Source: Candidatus Cloacimonadota bacterium
GTDB taxonomy: Bacteria; Cloacimonadota; Cloacimonadia; Cloacimonadales; TCS61
DNA: 14,805 nucleotides
Assembly (NCBI GenBank): GCA_030445745.1
Contig: JASUTE010000030.1
Span: 1-14,805, forward strand
Direction: 5' to 3'
Both the position numbers and the translations under genes were made by a program. This document shows, piece by piece, positions 1,032 to 12,939 of the stretch. Within the stretch, counting starts at the first letter, position 1; every line of letters starts with the position of its first letter. The notes beneath the pieces were generated by a model. The model was not told the DNA's origin. It did no database searches and saw only the letters and a program-made list of their open reading frames with translations.

Positions 1032-1060
1032 TTGACTTATGCACATATGTGCATTATCTT
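1032..1060 (+). promoter_or_regulatory. Sigma-70-type promoter of the DUF134/MinD/NifX cluster with an internal palindromic operator
   Basis: The -35 box TTGACT (1032-1037) and -10 box TATCTT (1055-1060) are separated by exactly 17 bases. ATGCACATATGTGCAT (1039-1054), a perfect 16-bp palindrome, fills that spacer up to the -10 box. A dimeric regulator bound there would block RNA polymerase. The nearest candidate is the DUF134 protein encoded 28 bases downstream, which would make this autoregulation, but that pairing is inference. Confidence 0.7.
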
Positions 1061-1087
1061 GTCGGCAGAATTCAAGGAGTGAAGATT

Positions 1088-1540
1088 ATGCCAAAGCCAC
1101 GTAAAGATAGAATAGTTGCTCAGCCACCCTTGTTCAGGTCGTTTAAACCGGCTGGACAGCGACGGCGACAGCTTCCCAAAATAATTCTTAGCTTAGATGA
1201 ATATGAAGCTATTCGTCTAGCAGATTATCTGGGATATGGTCATAGTAAGGCAGCGGTAGAGATGGAAATTTCACGTTCTACTTTTACCAGGCTGGTAGAG
1301 AAAGCTAGGCACAAGCTTGCGCAATTTATTTTGGCAGGAAAAGAGCTAGCTATATCTGGTGGTAAAATACATGTTAAGGGCAACAGAATGCGCTGTTTGG
1401 ACTGCGGAGAAATATTTCTCTCCGATTTTGAGGCAACTAGCGCTATTTGTCAGCGTTGTAATTCGGTAAATATAGAAGACCTTGCCCGCAGTTATGGGCA
1501 TGACAGATGTTGTAAAAAAAGACAAAGAAATAGGAGGTAA
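1088..1540 (+). CDS. DUF134 (UPF0251) family predicted DNA-binding protein
   Basis: This is a 150-residue protein. The start is ATG 1088, seven bases after AAGGAGT (1074-1080). It gives the family-typical opening MPKPRKDRIV and the segment 'FKPAG' near residue 19. Residues 36-80 (LDEYEAIRLADYLG..AAVEMEISRSTFTRLVEKAR) form a sigma-70 region 4-like helix-turn-helix. The C-terminal part holds paired cysteines C103/C106 and C121/C124 in a zinc-ribbon-like arrangement, plus a CC pair at 141-142. A longer version from GTG 1001 would run through the promoter and a terminator and is rejected. The family (PF02001, COG1342) is regularly found next to NifX-like and Mrp/MinD genes in anaerobes and is thought to be a regulator. 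Its stop overlaps the ribosome binding site of the next gene. Control of this cluster through the upstream palindrome is likely but unproven. Confidence 0.9.
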   Translation: MPKPRKDRIVAQPPLFRSFKPAGQRRRQLPKIILSLDEYEAIRLADYLGYGHSKAAVEMEISRSTFTRLVEKARHKLAQFILAGKELAISGGKIHVKGNRMRCLDCGEIFLSDFEATSAICQRCNSVNIEDLARSYGHDRCCKKRQRNRR

Positions 1541-1543
1541 ATT

Positions 1544-1864
1544 ATGCCACGAGGAGATGGAAGAGGACCAGACGGATTTGGTCCTATGACAGGAAGAGGT
1601 ATGGGTTACTGTGCTGGTTTCGATCGTCCTGGATACGCCAATCCTGGTTATGGCCGAGGAATGGGCTATCGCAGAGGCGGTGGTTACGGTAGAGGATATC
1701 GTCGTTTTAGTGGATATCCTGCTTATCCAGCCCCACCATACGATTATGGTTACGCTGCTCCCCCAGCAGCTGAAGAGAAAGAAGTTGTCGAAAATCAGAT
1801 TAAAAATCTGCAAAACCAGCTTTCCAGCTTGGAAAAACGATTGGCAGAATTGAATGAAGAATAA
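1544..1864 (+). CDS. DUF5320 Gly/Arg/Tyr-rich protein with C-terminal coiled coil
   Basis: This is a 106-residue protein starting at ATG 1544, six bases after a strong AGGAGG (1532-1537). The opening MPRGDGRGPDGFGPMTGRG and the following GYC (Cys23) are the hallmark of DUF5320. Residues 20-75 are low complexity, dominated by Gly, Arg, Tyr and Pro, with repeats such as GYGRGMGYRRGGGYGRGYRR. Residues 76-106 switch abruptly to an acidic, heptad-like helix (IKNLQNQLSSLEKRLAEL), probably an oligomerising coiled coil. The family has no known function. It travels with DUF134, MinD/Mrp and NifX genes, as here, so a scaffold or accessory role in cofactor assembly is a reasonable guess. There is no signal peptide, which suggests a cytoplasmic protein. 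Confidence 0.85.
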   Translation: MPRGDGRGPDGFGPMTGRGMGYCAGFDRPGYANPGYGRGMGYRRGGGYGRGYRRFSGYPAYPAPPYDYGYAAPPAAEEKEVVENQIKNLQNQLSSLEKRLAELNEE

Positions 1865-1871
1865 TCGGAAC

Positions 1872-1908
1872 ACCCTGCTTGTTTTAGAAGCAAGCAGGGT
1901 AAATTTTT
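1872..1908 (+). terminator. Hairpin with short T-tract between the DUF5320 and MinD genes (terminator or attenuator)
   Basis: ACCCTGCTTG (1872-1881) pairs perfectly with CAAGCAGGGT (1891-1900) around a nine-base loop, followed by AAATTTTT. The T run is short and offset, so termination is probably partial. The next gene's ribosome binding site starts directly after it at 1909, and no separate promoter is evident. It may therefore set the ratio between the first two genes and the ATPases, or protect an RNA end. Confidence 0.65.
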
Positions 1909-1922
1909 AGGAGAAAAAACTG
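1909..1922 (+). promoter_or_regulatory. Ribosome binding site and CTG start of the first MinD-type ATPase
   Basis: AGGAG (1909-1913) is followed by six A and then CTG 1920-1922. An in-frame TAG at 1908-1910 rules out any earlier start, and the Walker A motif begins only a few codons after CTG. The protein must therefore begin at this codon or an equally rare one. Confidence 0.7.
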
Positions 1923-2780
1923 AAAATAGCTATTGCCAGCGGTAAAGGTGGAACAGGTAAAACAACCATCGCTACCAACTTAGCTGCCCTGTTAGCAGAA
2001 ACAAGGCCAGTTACATTGGTAGATTTGGATGTAGAAGAACCTAATTCTGGATTGTTTGTAAAAGGCAAGTTAGAAGAAACAAATCCTGTGTATAAAATGG
2101 TCCCTGTTTGGGAAAAAGACAAATGTACCTTCTGTGGAAATTGTCAAAAAGTATGCAATTTTAATGCTGTAATCCAGCTTCACACACAGGTTTTAGTATT
2201 TCCCAAACTTTGCCACAGCTGCTATGCTTGTTCGGAACTTTGCCCCACCGATGCCCTTCCTATGAAACCAGAAAAAATTGGCGAAATCAAAACATTTCAC
2301 CAAGACAATTTGACTTTTTTGGAAAGCTGTTTGAATATTGGCCAAGAGATGGCTGTCCAAGTAATTGCCCACACCAACAAAATATTAGAAAAGGATTATC
2401 AAGGACAGCTTATTATTATTGATGCTCCCCCAGGCACTTCTTGTCCGGTTATCGAGGCCGTAAAAGATACGGATTTTGTGTTGTTGGCAGCAGAACCAAC
2501 TCCATTCGGACTACATGATTTGAAATTAGCAGTAGACACGATGCGAAAATTGAAAAAAGATTTTGCTGTTATCATTAATCGCTTTGGTTTAGGAAACGAT
2601 AAAATTTGGGAGTACTGCCAGCGACAAAACATAGAAATCTTAGCTAAAATCCCCAATTCGCGCACAGCAGCTGAGTTATATTCTCACGGAAAATTGATCT
2701 ATAAACAAATTCCGCAGGTAAAGCAGGAAGTATTGAAAATTGCTAACAAAATCCGCCAGCTATCAGGAGAGCCAAAATGA
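1920..2780 (+). CDS. MinD/Mrp-type P-loop ATPase with inserted ferredoxin domain (first copy)
   Basis: This is a 286-residue protein if CTG 1920 is the start; no ATG, GTG or TTG is usable without losing the nucleotide site. Residues 7-16 (SGKGGTGKTT) form a deviant Walker A with the signature Lys9 and Lys14. VDLDVEEPN follows, and DAPPG at 168-172 matches the switch region of the SIMIBI class. Between them lies a bacterial-type 2x[4Fe-4S] insert with cysteines 69, 72, 75, 79 and 98, 101, 104, 108. The architecture is COG1149, related to the cluster carriers Mrp/Nbp35 and to the ATPases of orange-protein operons. It would use ATP hydrolysis to drive assembly or transfer of a metal-sulfur cofactor in the cytoplasm. 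The stop overlaps the start of the second copy (ATGA), so the two are probably made together and may form a heterodimer. Confidence 0.9.
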   Translation: MKIAIASGKGGTGKTTIATNLAALLAETRPVTLVDLDVEEPNSGLFVKGKLEETNPVYKMVPVWEKDKCTFCGNCQKVCNFNAVIQLHTQVLVFPKLCHSCYACSELCPTDALPMKPEKIGEIKTFHQDNLTFLESCLNIGQEMAVQVIAHTNKILEKDYQGQLIIIDAPPGTSCPVIEAVKDTDFVLLAAEPTPFGLHDLKLAVDTMRKLKKDFAVIINRFGLGNDKIWEYCQRQNIEILAKIPNSRTAAELYSHGKLIYKQIPQVKQEVLKIANKIRQLSGEPK

Positions 2781-3658
2781 AAGAAATTGTGATTATTTCG
2801 GGCAAGGGTGGCACAGGTAAAACGTCTATCACAGCTTCTTTGGCAAAAGTGGCAAACACTGAAGCGGTAGCAGCAGATTGCGATGTAGATGCTGCTGATA
2901 TGCACTTACTATTACAGCCAGACTTTGCCTATTCGGAAGATTTTTATAGCGGTGTAATAGCCCAGATAGACCAAGAAAAATGCATAAAATGTGGAAAATG
3001 CAAAGATGTATGTCGTTTCAAAGCCATTTCCATAATAAACAAACAGTATGTGGTAGCCCCTTTAGATTGTGAAGGCTGTGGTTATTGCGCTCAGATTTGT
3101 CCGCGCGATGCCATAAGCACTCCTCACCAAAATGTAGGGAATTGGTATATTTCTTCTACACGCTTGGATATGCCCCTGGTACACGCTCGTTTGGGAATAG
3201 GCGCAGAAAATTCTGGGAAATTGGTAGCTAAGGTAAAAAATGAGGCCAAAGCCTTGGCGAAAGAAAAAAATATTCCTTTCCTTTTGGTTGATGGTTCACC
3301 AGGAATAGGTTGTCCAGTAATCTCTTCACTATCTGGAGCTGATTTTGTGGTTTTTGTTACCGAACCTACAGTTTCAGGCTTGCACGACCTGCAGCGGGTT
3401 TATGAACTAATTGCACAATTCAAACTGCCCGCGGGTTGCATAATAAACAAGGCTGACCTAAATATTGAAAAGACAAAGCTTATAAAGCAATTTATGCAAC
3501 AATACCAAATTTATGAATTAGATGATATAAATTATGATGAAAAATTTTCGGAAGCTGTTACCAATGGTTATACAGCTGCCGAGATCGATAAAGAATATGA
3601 AGAAAAATTTAAAAATATCTGGAAAAAAATAAAGAAAATAGTATTGGAGAAAAAATGA
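2777..3658 (+). CDS. MinD/Mrp-type P-loop ATPase with inserted ferredoxin domain (second copy)
   Basis: This is a 293-residue protein beginning with ATG inside an ATGA overlap. The Walker A is SGKGGTGKTS (residues 8-17, Lys10 and Lys15). CDVDAADMH and VDGSPG (171-176) are the other nucleotide-site elements, and TEPTVSGLHDL (195-205) is the C-terminal family motif. The ferredoxin insert has cysteines 69, 72, 75, 79 and 98, 101, 104, 108, at exactly the same residue numbers as in the first copy. The two are diverged paralogues of the same architecture rather than a recent duplication. An additional Cys35 sits by the CDVD motif. The lysine-rich C-terminal tail is longer than in the first copy. 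A role as the partner ATPase in Fe-S or mixed-metal cluster handling is inferred from family and context. Confidence 0.9.
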   Translation: MKEIVIISGKGGTGKTSITASLAKVANTEAVAADCDVDAADMHLLLQPDFAYSEDFYSGVIAQIDQEKCIKCGKCKDVCRFKAISIINKQYVVAPLDCEGCGYCAQICPRDAISTPHQNVGNWYISSTRLDMPLVHARLGIGAENSGKLVAKVKNEAKALAKEKNIPFLLVDGSPGIGCPVISSLSGADFVVFVTEPTVSGLHDLQRVYELIAQFKLPAGCIINKADLNIEKTKLIKQFMQQYQIYELDDINYDEKFSEAVTNGYTAAEIDKEYEEKFKNIWKKIKKIVLEKK

Positions 3659-3993
3659 GAATAGCATTCACTTCCCAAGGCTCTACTTGGAATGACCCGA
3701 TCGATCCACGCTTTGGCAGAGCTCCCTATCTGCTTATATACGACGAAGAAACCGACAAACTGGAAGTTATCGATAACACAGCTATAAACCAGGTTGCACA
3801 TGGTGCTGGGCCAGAGACTGCTCGCAAATTATTCCAAGCTAAGCCAAAAGTGCTTATAACTGGCAACGGGCCTGGTGGAAATGCTGCCCGTGTTTTGGAA
3901 AACGCTAATATAACCATTTATATCGGTGCTGGCAGCCTTACTGTTGAACAGGCTTATAAAAAATATAAGAATAATGAACTGAAAAATTACTGA
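3655..3993 (+). CDS. NifX/NifB-C-terminal family cofactor protein, cysteine-free
   Basis: This is a 112-residue protein starting in an ATGA overlap with the second ATPase. It has the single-domain fold of the dinitrogenase iron-molybdenum cofactor family (PF02579, COG1433): an opening MRIAFTSQG, 'DPRFGRAPYLLIYD' (17-30), a central 'GPETARKLFQAKPKVLITGNGPGGNAARVL' region, and the closing AYKKY. Relatives include NifX, NafY and the orange protein, which carry metal-sulfur clusters non-covalently. This copy has no cysteine and only one histidine (His49), so any cofactor would be held mostly by other residues or by a partner. Coupling to the two ATPases makes it their likely client or delivery protein (inference). 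A terminator follows. Confidence 0.9.
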   Translation: MRIAFTSQGSTWNDPIDPRFGRAPYLLIYDEETDKLEVIDNTAINQVAHGAGPETARKLFQAKPKVLITGNGPGGNAARVLENANITIYIGAGSLTVEQAYKKYKNNELKNY

Positions 3994-4014
3994 AAATTTA
4001 CTTGAACTTTTTAT

Positions 4015-4063
4015 TTCTCCTATCCAGATGGATTTAAAAAATTCACTATAGGAGAAGTTTTTT
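4015..4063 (+). terminator. Intrinsic terminator after the first NifX-family gene
   Basis: TTCTCCTAT (4015-4023) pairs perfectly with ATAGGAGAA (4048-4056), closing a long loop that contains its own small ATCC/GGAT hairpin. G and six T (4058-4063) follow. It separates the ATPase transcript from the DUF89 gene, whose AGGAA ribosome binding site starts directly after it. Confidence 0.75.
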
Positions 4064-4074
4064 AGGAATATATT

Positions 4075-4923
4075 ATGAAAACTTATTTAGATTGTTTCCC
4101 CTGCTTTTTAAACCAAGCTTTAAAAACAACACGTATAATTACAGATGATGAGGAATTGATACACTTTATTTTGGGTGAAATTGGCACTATACTGAAAAAT
4201 ATTCCCCTGCACAACACCCCGCCAGAGACTGGCGAGCTTATCTACCTTACAATATCCGAGCATACTGGTGTAGCAGATCCTTATAAAAAAATCAAAGAAA
4301 CCAACATCGCCGAAGCTAAGCAGTTTCTTCCTTATATCAAAAAAATGTCTGCAAAATTTGAAGATAAACTACTTTTTGCCACCAAAATGGCAATCGCCGG
4401 CAATGTAATAGACCTGGGAGTAAATAGCGAATTTAACATAGGCAAAGAGATAGAAACAAATTTGGAAAAAGATTTTACCATCGATCATTTTCACGACTTT
4501 AAAAAAGCTGTGGAAAAAGCTGAGACTATTCTTTACTTAGGCGATAATGCTGGTGAGGCTGTTTTCGATACCATACTTTTACAGCAACTACCGGGTAAGG
4601 CATATTACGCCGTACGTAATCTTCCTATAATAAATGATGTTACCAAAGAAGATGCGGTTGCAGCGGGTGTAGATAAGTTTGCCGAGATCATCTCTTCCGG
4701 ATGCCAGGCACCCGGTATTATTCTAAAACATTGCAGCCATCATTTTTGCCAGATATTCAAGCAAGCTGACCTGATAATTAGTAAAGGTCAGGGTAATTAT
4801 GAAGGACTTTCCACAGAAAAATATCCTATCTTTTTTTTATTGAAAACCAAGTGCAGCGTAATTGCCAATGATTTGGGTGTTCCCAAAGATTCTATTGTTT
4901 TAAAGAAAGCGAATAATAAATGA
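4075..4923 (+). CDS. DUF89 family (ARMT1-like, AF1104-type) metal-dependent phosphatase
   Basis: This is a 282-residue protein starting at ATG 4075 after AGGAA (4064-4068). It opens with MKTYLDCFPC (Cys7, Cys10), the start of the short prokaryotic DUF89 branch (COG1578). Metal-site motifs are GN (109-110) with D113, LGDNAGE (155-161; Asp157 and Asn158 are the expected metal ligands), IINDVT (185-190) and SKGQGNYE (236-243). The family contains damage-control phosphatases that hydrolyse phosphorylated metabolites with Mn, Ni or Co. The substrate of the AF1104-type branch is not established. The length is normal. The stop overlaps the start of the MFS gene (ATGA). Its position inside a cofactor cluster suggests a housekeeping role on a sugar-phosphate or cofactor side product, which is inference. 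Confidence 0.88.
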   Translation: MKTYLDCFPCFLNQALKTTRIITDDEELIHFILGEIGTILKNIPLHNTPPETGELIYLTISEHTGVADPYKKIKETNIAEAKQFLPYIKKMSAKFEDKLLFATKMAIAGNVIDLGVNSEFNIGKEIETNLEKDFTIDHFHDFKKAVEKAETILYLGDNAGEAVFDTILLQQLPGKAYYAVRNLPIINDVTKEDAVAAGVDKFAEIISSGCQAPGIILKHCSHHFCQIFKQADLIISKGQGNYEGLSTEKYPIFFLLKTKCSVIANDLGVPKDSIVLKKANNK

Positions 4924-6092
4924 AAAAGAAGTTTCAGTTAGGCAATATCATCACAATTTCTGCTGCTCATCTCATCCATGATTTTCATTCGGCATTTTTG
5001 GCTCCTATATTACCACTATTAATTCAGAAATTAGGAATTTCTCTCTCTTTAGCAGGGCTTTTGGATGTTGTGCGCCGACTACCTTCGCTTTTAAACCCAT
5101 TGGTAGGCATTTTAGCCGATAAGATCTGTGTGCGCTATTTCATTATTATAGCCCCATTTATCACCGGTTTGGTGATGAGTTTGTTGGGTTTAGCCCCCAC
5201 CTATGCAGTTTTGGTAATAATGCTACTAGTAGCTGGCATCAGTTCCACTCTTTTTCATGTACCAGCACCGGTAATGATAAAAAATATAGCTGGTAAACGT
5301 ATCGGCAAAGGAATGAGTTTTTATATGGTGGGAGGAGAATTAGCACGTACTTTAGGACCACTTATCATCACAACTGCTGTCTCTTGGTGGGGGTTGGAAG
5401 GAACTTTCAGACTTATACCTATCTCGCTTGCAGCTTCCATTGTGCTTTATATTCGTCTAAAAAATATAAAACTAAGTGAAGAACAATTAAAACAGAAGAA
5501 AAAATCGCATCCCGGTGCCACGTTTAAAAAATTATTACCATTTTTCCTAACAGTAAGTGGTATTTTATTTTTCCGCGCTGCTATAAAATCTTCACTTACC
5601 ATATTTCTGCCAACCTACCTCAGTGATAAAGGCGAATCCTTCTTTTTTGCCGGTATTTCGCTTTCGATACTACAATTTTCCGGAGCTGCTGGCACCTTTC
5701 TTGCTGGTTCTATCTCCGACAAAATAGGTAGAAAACCAACTTTGCTAACTATTTCAATTTTAAATCCTATTCTAATGTGGTTGTTCATAGTTTTCAACAG
5801 CGGCATTCTGATGCTGCCAATATTGCTAATGATGGGATTTATCTTATTTGCTTCTGGACCCGTTTTGTTAGCACTAGTGCAAGACACCAATTCCGAACAT
5901 CCTGCCTTTGTAAATGGAATTTATATGACCATAAATTTTGTTATGGGTTCCTTATTGGTTTTATTAATCGGAATTTTAGGCGATAGCATTGGCCTACAAA
6001 CTACCTACAAAATCTGTGCTACTCTATCTGTAGGCACTATTCCCTTCGTGCTGTTGCTTCCCTCTCATAAATCATCAAAAGAAAGAATATAA
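4920..6092 (+). CDS. Major facilitator superfamily transporter, fosmidomycin-resistance (Fsr)-like
   Basis: This is a 390-residue inner-membrane protein with about 12 hydrophobic segments and a charged central loop near residues 181-205. The first-half motif A is LVGILADKICVRYFI (61-75) and the second-half copy is LAGSISDKIGRKPTLL (261-276). The opening SAAHLIHDFHSAFLAPILPLL region and the segment FHVPAPVMIKNIAGKRIG..FYMVGGELARTLGPL (112-148) resemble the Fsr subfamily, whose members export fosmidomycin and other small compounds. The natural substrate is unknown. It is translationally coupled to the DUF89 gene (ATGA overlap), so the two may act on related compounds. ispD and ispF, genes of the pathway that fosmidomycin inhibits, begin about 1 kb downstream, but in a separate transcription unit. 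Confidence 0.85.
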   Translation: MKKKFQLGNIITISAAHLIHDFHSAFLAPILPLLIQKLGISLSLAGLLDVVRRLPSLLNPLVGILADKICVRYFIIIAPFITGLVMSLLGLAPTYAVLVIMLLVAGISSTLFHVPAPVMIKNIAGKRIGKGMSFYMVGGELARTLGPLIITTAVSWWGLEGTFRLIPISLAASIVLYIRLKNIKLSEEQLKQKKKSHPGATFKKLLPFFLTVSGILFFRAAIKSSLTIFLPTYLSDKGESFFFAGISLSILQFSGAAGTFLAGSISDKIGRKPTLLTISILNPILMWLFIVFNSGILMLPILLMMGFILFASGPVLLALVQDTNSEHPAFVNGIYMTINFVMGSLLVLLIGILGDSIGLQTTYKICATLSVGTIPFVLLLPSHKSSKERI

Positions 6093-6145
6093 TTTGGGAG
6101 CTTACGCAATTTGCTTCCTAGAAAAAAAATAAAAGGAGAAAAAAT

Positions 6146-6478
6146 ATGAAATTTGCCATACCAACCCAATTTGGAAAATTATGCGGGCATTTTGGACATT
6201 GTGAAAAATTCGCTATCGTGGAAACAAAAGATGGAGAGATTCTGAGTGAATCTTATTTAGAACCACCAATGCACCAGCCGGGAGCTTATCCAAAATTTTT
6301 AGCAGAACATGGTGTGAATGTTATAATATCTGGAGGCATGGGAAATCGGGCCCAAGCACTTTTCCAACAGAATAACATAGAAGTATGTGTAGGCGTGCAA
6401 CCAGATGAACCAGTTAAACTGGTAAAAGCTTATTGGAAGGGCAATTTGGCTACCGGTAGCAATTTATGTGACCACTAA
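6146..6478 (+). CDS. NifX/NifB-C-terminal family cofactor protein, Cys/His-rich
   Basis: This is a 110-residue protein starting at ATG 6146, seven bases after AAGGAG (6133-6138). It belongs to the same family as the gene at 3655 (PF02579) but to a different branch. It opens MKFAIPTQFGKLCGHFGHCEKF, giving Cys13, His15, His18 and Cys19 as a compact potential metal site. It has the family motif ISGGMGNRAQALFQ (61-74), Cys81, and a tail ending NLCDH (Cys108, His110). These residues make direct metal or cluster binding plausible. The family's biochemical role is carrying or inserting metal-sulfur cofactors. Its separation from the ATPases by DUF89 and MFS genes suggests either a second client or an accessory carrier. 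The gene ends before a weak terminator. Confidence 0.9.
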   Translation: MKFAIPTQFGKLCGHFGHCEKFAIVETKDGEILSESYLEPPMHQPGAYPKFLAEHGVNVIISGGMGNRAQALFQQNNIEVCVGVQPDEPVKLVKAYWKGNLATGSNLCDH

Positions 6479-6601: not shown

Positions 6602-6975
6602 ATGAAAAAGATTTTTGTAATTTTGATTGTGATGCTATCTGGAATTGCTTTGCTGGCAAATGGACTCAGCTTGAACAATGTAGGTAACAAGCTTTAGGAA
6701 TGGATGGAGCTTTTGTTGGTTTAGCCGATGATGGTACAGCAACTTCTCAGAATTCCGCCGGTTTGATAGGCCAAAGTAATTCTGTACAATTCAGCCTCAC
6801 AGACGTAATACCAATAGTAGAATATGAATATACGGCTGCTGGAATCGATGCAGAAGGTAAGAAAAATCGTTTTCTCAACCCTAATTTTTTTGCTAACTAC
6901 AACGTCAACGAAAAGTTGGCCTTTGGTTTGAGTGCTTTTGTTCCAGCCAGCATTGGTTTAGATTATAATTTCTAA
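6602..6975 (+). pseudogene. OmpP1/FadL-type outer-membrane porin, decayed by frameshift and internal deletion
   Basis: ATG 6602, eight bases after AAGGAG (6588-6593), begins a good signal peptide: MKKIFVILIVMLSGIALLA, then NGLSLNNVGNK. This frame stops at TAG 6695-6697. The next frame continues the family sequence without a gap, reading ALGMDGAFVGLADDGTATSQN from 6691 on. Restoring one base near 6688-6690 rejoins them. 'GLSLNNVG..ALGMxGAFVGLADDxTAxxxNxAGL' is the N-terminal plug region of OmpP1/FadL porins (PF03349). The frame runs on to LAFGLSAFVPAS and then jumps to IGLDYNF and a stop. The last residues look like the C-terminal beta-strand signal ending in Phe. About 124 residues remain of a usual 400 or more. 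Most of the barrel is therefore missing as well, and a sequencing error alone would not explain it. Confidence 0.8.
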
Positions 6976-7066: not shown

Positions 7067-7082
7067 TCTATTGGAGATGCTG

Positions 7083-7790
7083 ATGAATGTTGCTATAATT
7101 ACCGCCGGTGGCTCTGGCACTAGAATGAATATAAAAAAAAGGAAGCAATTTATTAAAATTGCTGGCAAACCTATACTATGCTGGACTTTAGACCATTTTG
7201 TTAATCATTCCCAGATTGATAGAATAATTATTACCCTGCCCCAAGACGAAATAGAAAATTTTAGAATATATTTGAAAAAAGAGTATTCAAACAAGCAACT
7301 AACACTTATTGCTGGGGGCACTAAGCGTCAAGATTCAGTCTTAAAAGCCTTACAGGCTTGTCCTACAAACACTCAATATGTCCTCATCCACGATGGTGTA
7401 CGACCATTCATAAGTAAACAGCTTATTTCTGAGCTGTTGGAGCAGGTAAAACAAGTTGATGGTGTGTTACCAGTTTCTCGAGTAAAAAATACTATAAAAG
7501 AAATCGATGCAGAGTTAGTGCAGAGAACCATTCCACGCCAAAATCTGGTAAATGCACTCACCCCACAGGTTTTTCATTATCCTTTAATACTACATTTGCA
7601 CCAGAAAGCTAAGGCAGAAAATCTACAAGTTACCGATGATGCCTCTCTATGCGAAACTTACGGTTATAAGGTTAGATACTTGTTGACTGATGATGGTAAC
7701 TTCAAAATAACCGATGCGCAAGATTTGGAAATTGCCAAATGTATTTTAGAAAATAATTTTAGGAGTAGCAATGAAATGGGAAAACTTTAA
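7083..7790 (+). CDS. ispD: 2-C-methyl-D-erythritol 4-phosphate cytidylyltransferase
   Basis: This enzyme of the MEP isoprenoid pathway joins CTP and methylerythritol phosphate to give CDP-methylerythritol. The protein has 235 residues, normal for the family. ATG 7083 is chosen because GGAG (7073-7076) lies six bases upstream. An upstream in-frame TTG at 7071 would overlap that site. Visible motifs are AGGSGTRM (8-15) with K21-Q22 for CTP binding, IHDGVRPF (102-109), R152 and TPQVF (160-164), TDDASLCE (184-191) and GNFKITDAQDLEIA (205-218, Lys208 in the substrate site). It shares a probable operon with the GlmS-like gene, overlapping it by 20 bases, and with ispF further down. Confidence 0.96.
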   Translation: MNVAIITAGGSGTRMNIKKRKQFIKIAGKPILCWTLDHFVNHSQIDRIIITLPQDEIENFRIYLKKEYSNKQLTLIAGGTKRQDSVLKALQACPTNTQYVLIHDGVRPFISKQLISELLEQVKQVDGVLPVSRVKNTIKEIDAELVQRTIPRQNLVNALTPQVFHYPLILHLHQKAKAENLQVTDDASLCETYGYKVRYLLTDDGNFKITDAQDLEIAKCILENNFRSSNEMGKL

Positions 7791-10491
7791 AATTACTCTT
7801 CCTATTCCGGTTTTTGGTTTAGGTTGCGGTGTTTTGGGCCTAAGCCTGGCTAAGGTAACCGTTAATATAGGAAAATACGCTTCCAAACTACTACGCTCGC
7901 TAGAATATAGAGGCTACGATTCCACGGGAGCTATTTTTCAAGACGATAAAAAAAAGACGAAAATACTGAAAGATGTGGGGGCTCCCAGTACTTTAGTAAA
8001 AACCCTGGGCATCGAAAAAGAGAAGGGGAAACTATTTTGCGGTCAGGTACGCTGGGCTACATTTGGCCAGGTGGACAAAAAAAATTCCCAGCCGCACGAG
8101 GTAAATTGTAAACGGCACATCTACGGAGCTCATAATGGTAACATTACAAACAGTCCCGAACTAAAAGAATTTCTGGTGTCAGAAGGCCACACTGTGATTT
8201 CCAACAACGATGGCGAAATGCTAGTTCATACTGTGGAACACTATTTCGACAACGAGCTGGAGCAGCATGAGCCCAAAAAGCAAAATTTGACCAAGGTAAG
8301 AAAACAATGTATGCGCCAGGCGATAATAAAAGCTGCCGCTAAGATGATAGGTTCCTATGCAGCTATAATAGTGGATCCTGTTACCGAAAATTTTTATGCT
8401 ATAAAAGCTGGTAGCAGCCTTTATTTTGGAATTGGAGAAGTAGACGGAATCCCGTTCGGTTTAGCTTCTTCCGATTTAACCGCAGTATTGAAATTCACCA
8501 AAAATCTGGTAAATCTGCGCGAAGGCGAATGTGTGGAATTTTCCCAGAAAAAATTTGAAGTTTTTGCTTTTAAAAACATAAAAATAAGACGTTTGAATAA
8601 ACCCAATGAAACTTATACCGCTGGCGAAGTTATACCCAAACAAGTCATCCGTTCCAAGTTGCGTGCAGAAGATACTCAGCTGATGCCGCCCTATGAATTT
8701 TTCATGGAGCAAGAGATCTATGCTGAGGTAGAATCTTCAGGTAAATTGGTAAAATTGTTCAACGGAGGTTCAAACACTGGTCGCCGCATGATGAACCTGT
8801 TGAAAAAAGAAAAGTTATTGGATAAAATAGAAAAATTAGCCACCGATATAGATGCAACTGACGACTTTGATAAGCAGCTGAAGATATTCAAAAAATTTGA
8901 AACATCGGAAATAGCCGACAAATTTTTCCAGAAAGTGAAAGAAAATTATAAACCAATTTATAATGAACTAGTTAAAGAGAATTTTCAAAAAAAATATTTC
9001 TTCTCTTCCAACAAAAACACCTACATAGATCTGGTAAATTCACATTTCGATAAGAAAAAACTGCTCTTAGCCAAAGCACTGGATACCATTGCCGAAGTTG
9101 AAGATGTGAAAGATTTCAACGCTTCGGTAAACCAATTTTTGCAGATTATAAAAAACACTTATGAAAATTGTGGAACTATCTACACAATAGCTTGTGGAAC
9201 CTCCTACCATGCCACCATGGTGGCTTCACTTTTCTTCAACGAAATAGCTCACACCGAAATAATTCCCATTTTACCTGGGAATTTCCGGGGACAATTCTCC
9301 AAAAGCCTACACGATAATGATGTGATAATCGGCGTTTCTCAGAGCGGCGAAACCAAAGATCTGGTAGATATTTTTAACGATGTAGATAACTCCGGGCTGG
9401 ATATTAAGAAAATTGTTTTAGTGAACAACATGAATTCGACGCTGGGCCAGGAAAAAAGCGATGTTTCCATTCCCATAAACTGCGGTCCCGAAATCGCTGT
9501 ACCGGCCACTAAAAGTTTTATCAATCAAATTACTCTTTTCTACTACCTGGCCATTAAAGTAGCAGAAATGAAATGCAAGGTAATGCATAAGAAACAACCA
9601 CAAAATCCAGAAATTGCCCAAATAGAAGCAGAATTGGCTCATCGTAAACGTTCTATAGAAGACATTCCAGCTTTAATAAGAGAAACCTTGGAAACAACTA
9701 CCGATGCTGTAGAAATGGTGGCTTCCAAGATCTATATGGAACCTTCGATGCATATTTTGGCTACTAAGATAACCGGTGTAGCCAAAGAAGGAGCACTTAA
9801 AATTCGTGAAACCGTGTTGAACCATGCTGAGGGTGGTGAAGCTTCCGAATTTAAGCATGGCCCCAATACTATTTTAGGAAAAAACACAGTTTTTGGTATA
9901 AAAAATGTAAAAGCCATGTTTAAGCACTACAACAATGTTCTAGATGAAATTTATACTAAAGCTGAATCTCGTAAAATTCCTAATAAAGAAGTACAAAAAC
10001 TTACTACAGCTCTTACCTCATACATTTTTAACCGGGTCGAACCGTTCAACCTTTCCCCCGCTTGCGAACAGCTTTTCCGGGAAACTATGGAATCTTTCGA
10101 TTTCTTCCAAAATGCCTATCGCAACTACCCGCTTATTTATGTAACCGGCCCTGAAGAACGCGATGTTAACCTGACAATTTCACAGATAAACACCCATAAA
10201 ATACGTGGTAGCGACACCTTTGTGATAGCCGAAGAAAACAGCAAATTACTCTGCAATGCCCGCAACACACCTTACGATCAGGAAAATAAATATTATGGCT
10301 GGGGCTATATTCCGCTGCCACAAACCGGCGATTCTTTGTTGACCGCTTTTTCGGCTACCATAGTATTACAACTTTTAGCTCTAAAAATGAGTATTCGCAA
10401 AATGAACAAATTAGATAAATTGAAGATCCACAAGCATGGTGTTCATCCTGATGTTCCTAAAAATGTTTCAAAATCGATAACAGTAGATTAA
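7771..10491 (+). CDS. glmS: Glutamine-fructose-6-phosphate aminotransferase (GlmS), long form with N-terminal leader
   Basis: This 906-residue enzyme compares with about 610 for typical GlmS. It would make glucosamine 6-phosphate for peptidoglycan and lipopolysaccharide. AGGAG (7761-7765) supports ATG 7771. The N-terminal glutaminase domain shows CGVLGL with the expected nucleophile at Cys19 rather than at residue 2, EYRGYDSTGA (45-54), VRWATFG (93-99; family usually WATHG), HNG (121-123) and Asp147. The two SIS isomerase domains show ACGTSYH (474-480), SQSGETKD (523-530), EIAVPATKS (574-582), KEGALKIRE (672-680), EFKHGP (693-698) and the C-terminal SKSITVD (900-906), with Lys901 as the Schiff-base equivalent. 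Extra segments lie between the MEQEIY motif (312-317) and SIS1, and inside SIS2 after 705. The isomerase site looks intact. Glutamine use depends on exposing Cys19. Confidence 0.9.
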   Translation: MKWENFKITLPIPVFGLGCGVLGLSLAKVTVNIGKYASKLLRSLEYRGYDSTGAIFQDDKKKTKILKDVGAPSTLVKTLGIEKEKGKLFCGQVRWATFGQVDKKNSQPHEVNCKRHIYGAHNGNITNSPELKEFLVSEGHTVISNNDGEMLVHTVEHYFDNELEQHEPKKQNLTKVRKQCMRQAIIKAAAKMIGSYAAIIVDPVTENFYAIKAGSSLYFGIGEVDGIPFGLASSDLTAVLKFTKNLVNLREGECVEFSQKKFEVFAFKNIKIRRLNKPNETYTAGEVIPKQVIRSKLRAEDTQLMPPYEFFMEQEIYAEVESSGKLVKLFNGGSNTGRRMMNLLKKEKLLDKIEKLATDIDATDDFDKQLKIFKKFETSEIADKFFQKVKENYKPIYNELVKENFQKKYFFSSNKNTYIDLVNSHFDKKKLLLAKALDTIAEVEDVKDFNASVNQFLQIIKNTYENCGTIYTIACGTSYHATMVASLFFNEIAHTEIIPILPGNFRGQFSKSLHDNDVIIGVSQSGETKDLVDIFNDVDNSGLDIKKIVLVNNMNSTLGQEKSDVSIPINCGPEIAVPATKSFINQITLFYYLAIKVAEMKCKVMHKKQPQNPEIAQIEAELAHRKRSIEDIPALIRETLETTTDAVEMVASKIYMEPSMHILATKITGVAKEGALKIRETVLNHAEGGEASEFKHGPNTILGKNTVFGIKNVKAMFKHYNNVLDEIYTKAESRKIPNKEVQKLTTALTSYIFNRVEPFNLSPACEQLFRETMESFDFFQNAYRNYPLIYVTGPEERDVNLTISQINTHKIRGSDTFVIAEENSKLLCNARNTPYDQENKYYGWGYIPLPQTGDSLLTAFSATIVLQLLALKMSIRKMNKLDKLKIHKHGVHPDVPKNVSKSITVD

Positions 10492-10504
10492 CCAGGAAGG
10501 AAAG

Positions 10505-10978
10505 ATGCGTATAGGCCATGGTTACGATGTTCATCGTACAGAAAAAGACCGTAAATTGGTGTTGGGTGGAATCGAGATAGAGAGCGAATTTGGCTTGCTG
10601 GGGCATTCCGATGCCGATGTGGTACTGCACGCTGTTATCGATGCTATCTTAGGCGCTCTGGCAGCTGGCGATATCGGTCAGCATTTTCCCGATAGTGATT
10701 CCCAATATAAGAACATAGATAGTCGCATTTTGCTGCGCAAAACTGTGGATATTATGGATAGAGCCAAGATGGAAATTGCTAACATAGACATCACCATAGC
10801 TGCTGCCAAACCCAAGTTGCAACCTTATTTGGAAGATATGCGCGAAAACCTGCGGCAAGACCTGCACACTTCCAAGAAAAATATATCTGTTAAAGCCACC
10901 ACCGAAGAAGGCTTGGGTGTGAGTGGAAAAGGGAAAGGTATTGCAGCTACCGCAGTTGTTTTACTAAAATCTATATGA
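10505..10978 (+). CDS. ispF: 2-C-methyl-D-erythritol 2,4-cyclodiphosphate synthase
   Basis: This 157-residue enzyme cyclises CDP-methylerythritol 2-phosphate, releasing CMP, in the MEP pathway. It acts as a trimer with a divalent metal. Metal ligands Asp8 and His10 (GYDVH) and His42 are in their usual places. Other motifs are LVLGGIEI (18-25), GHSDADVVLHAV (33-44), the DIGQHFPDSD stretch (56-65) and KATTEEGLG (130-138). The start ATG 10505 follows AGGAAGG (10494-10500) by four bases. The gene begins 13 bases after the GlmS-like stop and overlaps the U32 gene start (ATGA), so it is embedded in one operon. Confidence 0.97.
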   Translation: MRIGHGYDVHRTEKDRKLVLGGIEIESEFGLLGHSDADVVLHAVIDAILGALAAGDIGQHFPDSDSQYKNIDSRILLRKTVDIMDRAKMEIANIDITIAAAKPKLQPYLEDMRENLRQDLHTSKKNISVKATTEEGLGVSGKGKGIAATAVVLLKSI

Positions 10979-12939
10979 AACCTGAATTACTAGTTCCTGT
11001 TGGCAACCCGGAAGCTTTTTACGCTGCTCAAAAGGGCGGTGCAGATGCTGTTTATTTGGGGCTACGCAAATTCAATGCCCGCGGCCGTGCCAAAAATTTT
11101 GCTATAAACCAGTTGCAGTCACTGCTAAAAGAAGCTGACCGCAGCCACATGAAAGTTTACGTAACCCTGAACACCTTGATAAAAAACACAGAGCTAAGCG
11201 AACTGATGGATACGCTTTATCTTTTGGAACAAACCTCCGCAAATGCTTTGATAATTCAGGATTGGGGCGTTTATTATTTGGCAACTAAGTTTTTTAAGAA
11301 GCTAAAACTGCACGCCAGCACGCAGATGGGAAACCACAACTCCTTGGGAACAGCTTTTTCGGCTCAAAATAACTTCGAACGAATAATCTTAGCACGCGAG
11401 CTAACCCGCCCTGAGCTAGAAGAAATAGCGCGAAAGAGCGAGGTTCAATTGGAAGTTTTTGTACATGGCGCATTGTGTTATTCCTTTTCTGGTTATTGCC
11501 TCTTCAGCAGCTTTTTAGGCGGGCACAGTGCCAATCGTGGTTTATGCCGACAGCCCTGCAGGCGCTTGTACACCAGCAAAAACAAAAGCCAATACCTGTT
11601 CAGTTTAAAAGACAACCAGCAAATAGAGCTGGTGCCACAACTGAAGAAAATGGGAATTTCTTCCCTGAAAATAGAAGGCAGAATGAAATCGGCGGAATAT
11701 GTTTACCAAGTTACACGCGCCTATCGTATGGCGCTGGACGACAACAGCAACATTCCCCAAGCCAAAGAAATTCTGCAGTACGATTTTGGCAGAGAAAAAA
11801 CCAAATATTTTCTGGGAAAAAACGTAAGCGAAGCAATTTCCAATAATCCCTATTCCGGTTTACAAATAGGAAAAATTTCTCGGAAAGATAAGGATGGTAT
11901 CTACCTTACTTCCCAATTCCCACTTACCAAGGGCAACCGCATTCGCATTTTACCCAAAGATGGCACCGACAGCCAGGCCTTGAAGATAAAAGAGATCGAG
12001 AAAAAAGATGAAAATCTGTTCTTTTTGCCAGAAACCAAATTTCAGGTTGGCGATAAGATCTTCCTAGCAGGTTTAGGCGAATTTAAGTTTAAAAATAAAT
12101 TTCAACTACAGGGTAAAAAGTTAAAATTGCAAATGCCCAGCCAGAAAAAAGCTAATATTTTAGGAAAGATCGGCTCTACCCAGCAGTTGAAAAGAACCCA
12201 GATCTTCGTGCGGATAAATTCCCTGAAATGGCTACGTAAGATATATTTCAATCGCTTCGACCAGCTTATTTTGAACTTACCCAAAACAGAATGGATGCGC
12301 TTTCATAGCAGCAAGAATTTTCTGCAGAAACACAGCCGCCACATCATAGTGGAACTACCAAAATTCATTCCGGAAGGAGATTTGGAATTCTACAGCATTC
12401 TTACCAAAAAACTGGTTAGAAACAACTATCGCCATTTTATGCTCAGTCATCTTTCCCAGAAACAACTACTGCCTCCCAAAGCTATTTTTAGTGTTAACGA
12501 AAACGTTTACACTTTGAATGATGCAGCTATTCAGATGGTGAAAGAAACCGGTGCTAAACTTTATGTTACCCCGCAGGAAAATGAATATTCCAACCTACTG
12601 GCCGGCAAAGATAGAAAAGCGATCGTTCCCCTCTATTTCCTGCCTCAGCTCTTCTACTCCCGTATGCCAATAGATTTGCCAGCAGCCAATTTCCAGGATA
12701 GAGATAAAACCTACCGCCGCCACCTGCGCAATGGTTTCACAGTTATAACTCCGCAAATTCCTGTTTCGCTGTTGCAATACAAAGAAAAGCTCTATAAAAA
12801 GGGCTTTCGACGTTTCCTGATAGATTTTTCTTATGGAAAACCTTCCCAGAACACTTTCAACCGCATTATGAAGAACCTGGAAACCTCAACTGCGGAGCAA
12901 CCTTCGACCACTTTTAACTTTAAAATGGGCTTAAAATAA
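10975..12939 (+). CDS. U32 family protein (RlhA/TrhP-like RNA hydroxylation factor)
   Basis: This is a 654-residue protein starting in an ATGA overlap with ispF. The N-terminal U32 barrel (COG0826) opens KPELLVPVGNPEAFYAAQKGGADAVYLG and carries FNARGRAKNF (33-42) and VYVTLNTLI (61-69). The family's Cys signature follows as VFVHGALCYSFSGYC (161-175) and NRGLCRQPCR (187-196). Cys168, 175, 191 and 195 are the probable Fe-S cluster ligands. SSLKIEGRMKSAEYV (229-243) closes the domain. The C-terminal half contains a long variable region and a closing FNFKMGLK. The length is close to that of E. coli RlhA (653 residues), which is needed for 23S rRNA cytidine hydroxylation, while TrhP acts on tRNA. 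Which RNA is modified here cannot be read from sequence. 'Peptidase' is a historical family name, and proteolysis is not supported by motifs seen here. Confidence 0.88.
   Translation: MKPELLVPVGNPEAFYAAQKGGADAVYLGLRKFNARGRAKNFAINQLQSLLKEADRSHMKVYVTLNTLIKNTELSELMDTLYLLEQTSANALIIQDWGVYYLATKFFKKLKLHASTQMGNHNSLGTAFSAQNNFERIILARELTRPELEEIARKSEVQLEVFVHGALCYSFSGYCLFSSFLGGHSANRGLCRQPCRRLYTSKNKSQYLFSLKDNQQIELVPQLKKMGISSLKIEGRMKSAEYVYQVTRAYRMALDDNSNIPQAKEILQYDFGREKTKYFLGKNVSEAISNNPYSGLQIGKISRKDKDGIYLTSQFPLTKGNRIRILPKDGTDSQALKIKEIEKKDENLFFLPETKFQVGDKIFLAGLGEFKFKNKFQLQGKKLKLQMPSQKKANILGKIGSTQQLKRTQIFVRINSLKWLRKIYFNRFDQLILNLPKTEWMRFHSSKNFLQKHSRHIIVELPKFIPEGDLEFYSILTKKLVRNNYRHFMLSHLSQKQLLPPKAIFSVNENVYTLNDAAIQMVKETGAKLYVTPQENEYSNLLAGKDRKAIVPLYFLPQLFYSRMPIDLPAANFQDRDKTYRRHLRNGFTVITPQIPVSLLQYKEKLYKKGFRRFLIDFSYGKPSQNTFNRIMKNLETSTAEQPSTTFNFKMGLK

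Follow-up and report, generated by a model that had tools for sequence, protein, structure and literature searches.

Background

The orange protein (ORP) complex of sulfate reducers is encoded by two divergent sigma54 operons with a cognate activator, and includes the ferredoxin-MinD ATPases Orp3 and Orp4, Orp8 and the two-domain protein MrpORP (Orp9). MrpORP is reported to load iron-sulfur (Fe-S) clusters into the Orp3 and Orp4 ATPases, passing them to Orp3-Orp4-Orp8 (PMC6345978). The dimer interface of the nitrogenase Fe protein has a cluster held by Cys97 and Cys132 from both subunits, and switch II couples the nucleotide state to that cluster (PMC9571451, PMC10745740). Many anaerobes have ferredoxin-MinD ATPases and NifX-family proteins, most of which have no assigned role. 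Here, we describe an eight-gene operon with such proteins in a Candidatus Cloacimonadota bacterium. The window that we analyzed is the entire 14,805-base contig JASUTE010000030.1 of assembly GCA_030445745.1, a 2.04 Mb genome with a completeness of 99.3%. In line with this affiliation, a named Cloacimonadota locus (L120) shares 68.5% identity over 2.9 kb with L070, a relative of the same order. This operon is related to the ORP complex of sulfate reducers, and its probable function is to assemble a metal-sulfur cluster and transfer it.

Comparison with the ORP complex cluster

A preliminary description of this DNA had reported an eight-gene cluster, and we confirmed that it is real and correctly placed, with all genes on the + strand and each assigned by Pfam. 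Its identity as an ORP-type variant is highly likely. Both clusters share the tandem pair of ferredoxin-MinD ATPases (Orp3/Orp4), and both bring together an ORP/Orp8-type Nitro_FeMo-Co protein (here P0005) and the C-terminal domain of MrpORP (here P0008). Mrp is present in the same genome, although MrpORP is one protein in the ORP complex cluster and is split here. Unlike in the divergent sigma54 operons, the genes here all have the same orientation and follow a sigma70-like promoter that contains the palindrome predicted as the DUF134 operator, and DUF5320, DUF89 and a major facilitator superfamily (MFS) transporter are extra. No Orp5 (small [2Fe-2S] protein) was identified in the operon, where no search with the Orp5 sequence was made.

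The arrangement of the ATPases is not a chance one, because 40 of the 59 relatives have the pair, in tandem wherever a contig carries both genes. Their order could be measured in 106 loci, with the two genes overlapping or abutting in 81. ATGA overlaps join ATPase A to ATPase B and ATPase B to P0005, as seen before, and DUF89 is joined to the MFS gene likewise. A scan of genome contigs located the pair in 80 loci labelled with many bacterial and archaeal phyla, and the core thus recurs well beyond close relatives.

Overall, the locus is best explained as a metal-sulfur cluster operon of the ORP type in which MrpORP is split and DUF134 is the regulator, and we favor this reading with modest confidence. 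Sequence establishes the parts well; how they work, which metal is involved and what DUF89 and MFS do are what we infer. What this comparison adds is a predicted DUF134 operator and an invariant ninth cysteine in switch II of both ATPases.

NifX-family proteins and the split MrpORP

The two NifX-family partners had been treated as anonymous, but each can be given a kind: P0005 is of the ORP/Orp8 type, and P0008 is a detached C-terminal domain of MrpORP. For P0005 (3655-3993, +; PF02579), the top solved match was 2WFB, the D. gigas ORP (E 1.1e-12). Its assignment as NifX proper (TIGR02663) was rejected, with 15 bits against an equivalog cut-off of 112 bits.

P0008 (6146-6478, +) matches only the C-terminal part of the MrpORP model NF041136 (positions 265-365, 120 bits). 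The published motifs of the MrpORP C-domain are CxHFGHCE, PPxHxPGxxP and a terminal CDH (PMC6345978), and P0008 carries all three, as CGHFGHCE, PPMHQPGAYP and a C-terminal CDH. A class motif narrowed to CxHFGHC was also considered and dropped, HFGHC being the part kept across the class. In a FastTree phylogeny of 205 rows, built on a short alignment and with many forks open, P0008 grouped with the C-domains from four full MrpORP fusions in a single branch with a support of 95.

These four fusions score 505-557 bits on NF041136, whose curated cut-off of 450 bits spans both domains. P0008 falls below it, and so does the free Mrp of the same genome, which is encoded on contig C31 and covers positions 1-249 with 354 bits. 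Compared with MrpORP, the two domains are thus separate genes on different contigs here. In two loci (L057 and L152), Mrp and a P0008-type gene have 4 bp in common. Since fusions, these overlaps and our split genes all occur, MrpORP seems to be fused, adjacent or split depending on the lineage. Of 118 loci, 27 have a free Mrp gene with PPGTGDE close to the core, and P0008-type and P0005-type domains form a single protein in L134, L155 and L125.

Since the reported function of MrpORP is the loading of Fe-S clusters into Orp3/Orp4, P0008 by analogy probably belongs to the loader and is less likely to be a client. The earlier proposal that the ATPase pair builds or loads a metal-sulfur cofactor onto one or both NifX proteins is supported as regards metal-sulfur cluster work by the pair with NifX-family partners, and modified as regards the probable place of P0008. 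The split is also of practical value, as it makes loader and carrier separable for study.

A different function for P0005 or P0008 would be that of an IssA-like thioferrate store filled by the ATPases. IssA belongs to the Nitro_FeMo-Co family too, but its storage is tied to a cationic C-terminal tail (PMC6345978). P0008 has no such tail and groups with MrpORP C-domains in the tree, and P0005 has a short Lys-containing end only. We regard iron-sulfur storage as very improbable.

ATPase pair

ATPase A (P0001, 1920-2780, +) and ATPase B (P0004, 2777-3658, +; assigned by Pfam) are MinD-type proteins, and both contain a 2x[4Fe-4S] ferredoxin insert. Their identity of about 32%, which extends over most of the two sequences, makes them paralogues. 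Eight cysteines had been reported at identical positions (69, 72, 75, 79, 98, 101, 104 and 108, numbered from the start codon), and they are indeed the same in both proteins. That list lacked a ninth shared cysteine, C175 in ATPase A and C179 in ATPase B, which is invariant among the aligned ATPases (112/112 and 105/105, respectively). It closes the switch II motif D-x-[PS/A]-P-G-x-x-C, which reads PPGTSC in A and SPGIGC in B, and in ATPase A it stands 7 residues past D168.

The AlphaFold2 model of ATPase A (pLDDT 93.8) matches the folds of MinD, FleN, BchL, HypB, ApbC and NifH with Z of 21-24, and residue 175 lies at the start of the helix that follows the 164-168 strand. The deviant Walker A P-loop fold is common to NifH and BchL, and the position of the switch II cysteine resembles that of Cys132 in NifH, 7 residues after Asp125, which we take to be the matching Walker B residue of the nitrogenase Fe protein. 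What differs from NifH and BchL is that there are two paralogues here, each with its own ferredoxin insert and one invariant non-ferredoxin cysteine per subunit. In the ATPases, the Cys132-like spacing is present, and neither an equivalent of Cys97 nor any other second invariant cysteine for the interface was identified. The Mrp/NBP35/ApbC carriers share the ATPase superfamily and a PPGT-type switch II motif with the pair, but in Mrp the place of the cysteine is taken by D (PPGTGD), and the Mrp cluster is held by a CxxC motif.

A further idea, which we put forward tentatively and on the doubtful side, joins these features. The pair would be a heterodimeric, ATP-gated relative of the nitrogenase Fe protein with a third cluster at its interface, on the switch II cysteines, and with a built-in ferredoxin feed. 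Its task across many phyla of anaerobes would be to load NifX-family carriers with a metal-sulfur cluster, or to reduce one on them, and a cross-phylum metal or redox switch, DUF134 with the operator TGMRCATATGYKCA, would control it. The single invariant cysteine pair offers a handle on whether these ATPases carry an interface cluster.

The MinD fold also agrees with a spatial or cell-division system, in which the pair would position something at the pole or the Z-ring, a role that has been suggested for the ORP complex of Desulfovibrio. Polar localization of MrpORP and the division hypothesis have been published (PMC6345978, PMC4672049). However, the invariant cluster cysteines, including that of switch II, favor cluster chemistry, and so do the NifX-family, Mrp and NifU_N neighbors, so that a positioning role appears improbable.

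We set the start of ATPase A at CTG 1920, which has AGGAG upstream and coincides with an ATG in aligned homologues. This CTG is a rare start or else a sequence error. The first TTG, at 2016, was rejected as a start because the P-loop would be lost.

DUF134 regulator and its predicted operator

The first gene encodes a DUF134 protein (P0002, 1088-1540, +; PF02001, 78 bits) with a sigma-region-4-like helix-turn-helix, a CxxC...CxxC ribbon and a C-terminal H-x-x-C-C. In the alignment, C103, C106, C121 and C124 are conserved, and H138, C141 and C142 are present in most sequences; these residues would suit metal or redox sensing. The fold search returned no whole-protein match at E 0.001, and the helix-turn-helix part matched sigma region 4 and DeoR folds with high probability.

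A sigma70-type promoter is predicted upstream at 1032-1060 on the + strand, with TTGACT (1032-1037) and TATCTT (1055-1060) separated by 17 bp. Position 1032, from which the cluster had been counted before, is the first base of the -35 hexamer. The spacer is occupied by a 16-bp perfect palindrome, ATGCACATATGTGCAT (1039-1054, unstranded), with the core TGMRCATATGYKCA at 1040-1053. We suggest that this palindrome, identified by comparison of loci, is likely the DUF134 operator, because perfect copies stand at the heads of DUF134/ORP operons. The earlier assignment of DUF134 as the regulator of the cluster thus gains support, with an operator now predicted in its own promoter. No published description of a DUF134 operator was found in our literature search.

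In 1.66 Mb of related loci, 28 of the 30 perfect copies of TGMRCATATGYKCA were located at DUF134 starts, although the count in this near set is not independent, since the pattern was derived from part of those loci. The remaining two copies lie upstream of DUF5320-ATPases (L113) and upstream of the gene preceding DUF5320-ATPases (L147). Allowing at most one mismatch, 45 of 69 DUF134 genes have a site. When whole genomes were searched, 23 of the 59 relatives presented 24 sites in total, against none for the reversed pattern used as a control, and all 23 sites retrieved from these genomes adjoin DUF134. Better tests of the operator are the search across the whole phylum and the distant phyla (L117, L119, L121, L153 and L160). 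Phylum-wide, the pattern was present in 41 of 124 genomes, and 13 of the 15 further sites examined adjoin DUF134, a P0008-type gene or DUF5320. If correct, the predicted operator would name the DUF134 regulon in any genome.

Two variants of this arrangement were observed at other loci. In L219, L223, L224 and L225, the palindrome is directly upstream of DUF5320, and the retrieved stretch has no DUF134. In L092, L093, L094 and L098, a DUF134 gene with a one-mismatch operator overlaps an MFS gene, followed by a pyridine-nucleotide oxidoreductase, apart from the ATPase pair. This could be a smaller DUF134 module.

DUF89 and MFS genes

P0006 (4075-4923, +; PF01937, 229 bits) is predicted to be a DUF89/ARMT1-like metal-dependent phosphatase, and its GDNAGE signature aligns to the DN active-site signature of 2G8L and 2FFJ. 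P0007 (4920-6092, +; PF07690, 127 bits) is an MFS transporter that matches the generic MFS_1 only. The label of Fsr-like exporter given to it before is unsupported: all NCBIfam MFS matches were far below their cut-offs, no solved structure was matched by sequence, and it is left without a subfamily.

Could these two genes be an unrelated pair that landed inside the operon? The MFS gene accompanies the core in close relatives only (8 of 38 near loci and 0 of 80 distant ones), and DUF89 is near the core in just 4 of 38 near loci. However, 18 of the 80 distant loci have a DUF89-type protein close to the core, where a density of one copy per 2.5 Mb would predict about 0.4; the distant loci are kin to each other, and the Poisson value is indicative only. 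DUF89 is thus a genuine recurrent neighbor of the core, and the refuting condition that had been set beforehand, a lack of co-occurrence, does not hold for it. Moreover, L084, L087 and L065 resemble the window in having the MFS gene next to a P0008-type gene, and in L092-L094 and L098 the MFS gene is next to DUF134. A chance insertion is quite improbable in our opinion. As for the exporter in the extended system that had been proposed, it holds as a neighbor among close relatives but not in the distant loci.

The usual order in relatives is DUF89, a glyoxalase-like or CGGC gene, ArsP_2 and MFS, often with a pyridine-nucleotide oxidoreductase next. This block would fit a metal or metalloid detoxification operon, in which a soft metal would be locked up as a sulfide cluster in NifX-family proteins loaded by the ATPases, with DUF89 and the exporters disposing of the toxic species. 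ArsP_2 reaches 147 bits against the cut-off of 100 of the NCBIfam 'arsenic efflux protein', a DUF364 protein ('putative heavy-metal chelation') adjoins DUF89 in relatives, and the DUF134-MFS pairs of L092-L094 and L098, with their one-mismatch operator, stand apart from the ATPase pair. However, the ArsP_2-type exporter, often beside MFS in relatives, is absent from the window, and none was found in a search of the whole genome, in which control genomes gave no match either. In addition, no ArsR, ArsM or ArsC family was recognized among the scanned neighbors, and many core loci of distant phyla have no recognized exporter. Detoxification is unlikely in our view, and we retain the ORP-type cluster operon, with DUF89 and MFS as putative accessories.

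Just before DUF89, we observed an inverted repeat at 4015-4056, TTCTCCTAT / ATAGGAGAA, with arms 24 nt apart, one of which covers an AGGAG-like sequence.

Proposed mechanism

For the ORP-type operon, we propose the following mechanism, which as a whole falls a little short of an even chance. DUF134 would bind the palindrome in its own promoter, as predicted by comparison, and set the expression of the operon, its Cys/His tail possibly reading a metal or redox signal. By analogy with MrpORP, the separate Mrp ATPase and P0008 would do its job and load [4Fe-4S] clusters into the ATPase pair. The two ATPases would form a heterodimer that closes round C175/C179 upon ATP binding. Their ferredoxin domains may supply the electrons, and a metal-sulfur cluster would be assembled on, reduced on or passed to P0005. 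DUF89 and MFS, of which the DUF89 association was observed, would be an accessory module for phosphate ester hydrolysis and export of a linked small molecule or metal species.

Several points weigh against this explanation. The operon is known from its sequence and from predicted structure, and 1RDU, another NifX-family structure, is almost as close to P0005 as 2WFB. The Mrp gene lies outside the cluster, on a different contig, and a single switch II cysteine per subunit is half of the NifH ligand set. Finally, a cell-division role has been proposed for ORP as well (PMC6345978, PMC4672049).

Other features of the locus

The DUF5320 protein (P0003, 1544-1864, +; PF17253, 100 bits) is Gly/Arg/Met-rich, with a coiled-coil-like C-terminal tail. 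A perfect hairpin with a 10-bp stem, followed by T5, lies at 1872-1900 on the + strand, 8 nt past its stop codon. Hairpins at a similar position, 6-13 nt past the DUF5320 stop, were found in L049, L056, L057, L060, L065, L067, L080, L105 and L118, and many of the hairpins after DUF5320 have GCAGG/CCTGC-like stems. Overall, 13 of 39 regions following DUF5320 presented a hairpin, compared with 5% of random regions. It may be an attenuator or an mRNA 3' stabilizer.

The Rfam scan and the tRNA search of the window gave no match, and PADLOC gave none for the eight proteins. A literature search on DUF134, DUF5320, DUF89 and NifX combined, or on Cloacimonadota with NifX, found nothing relevant.

Other recurrent neighbors of the core include a radical SAM protein, NifU_N, metallo-beta-lactamase, an extra Nitro_FeMo-Co protein, Usp and DUF364, with a sigma54 activator in distant loci only. 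Downstream of the operon, the window encodes IspD, a GlmS-like gene, IspF and one further gene family (7071-12939). In many relatives of the same family, this block likewise comes after the core or after the MFS gene, so the operon occupies a conserved genomic site. Between the operon and this block, at 6603-6975, there is an interrupted gene with a signal-peptide-like start, MKKIFVILIVMLSG, a stop at about 6697 and a continuation in another frame; from its sequence, it looks like a broken outer-membrane protein.

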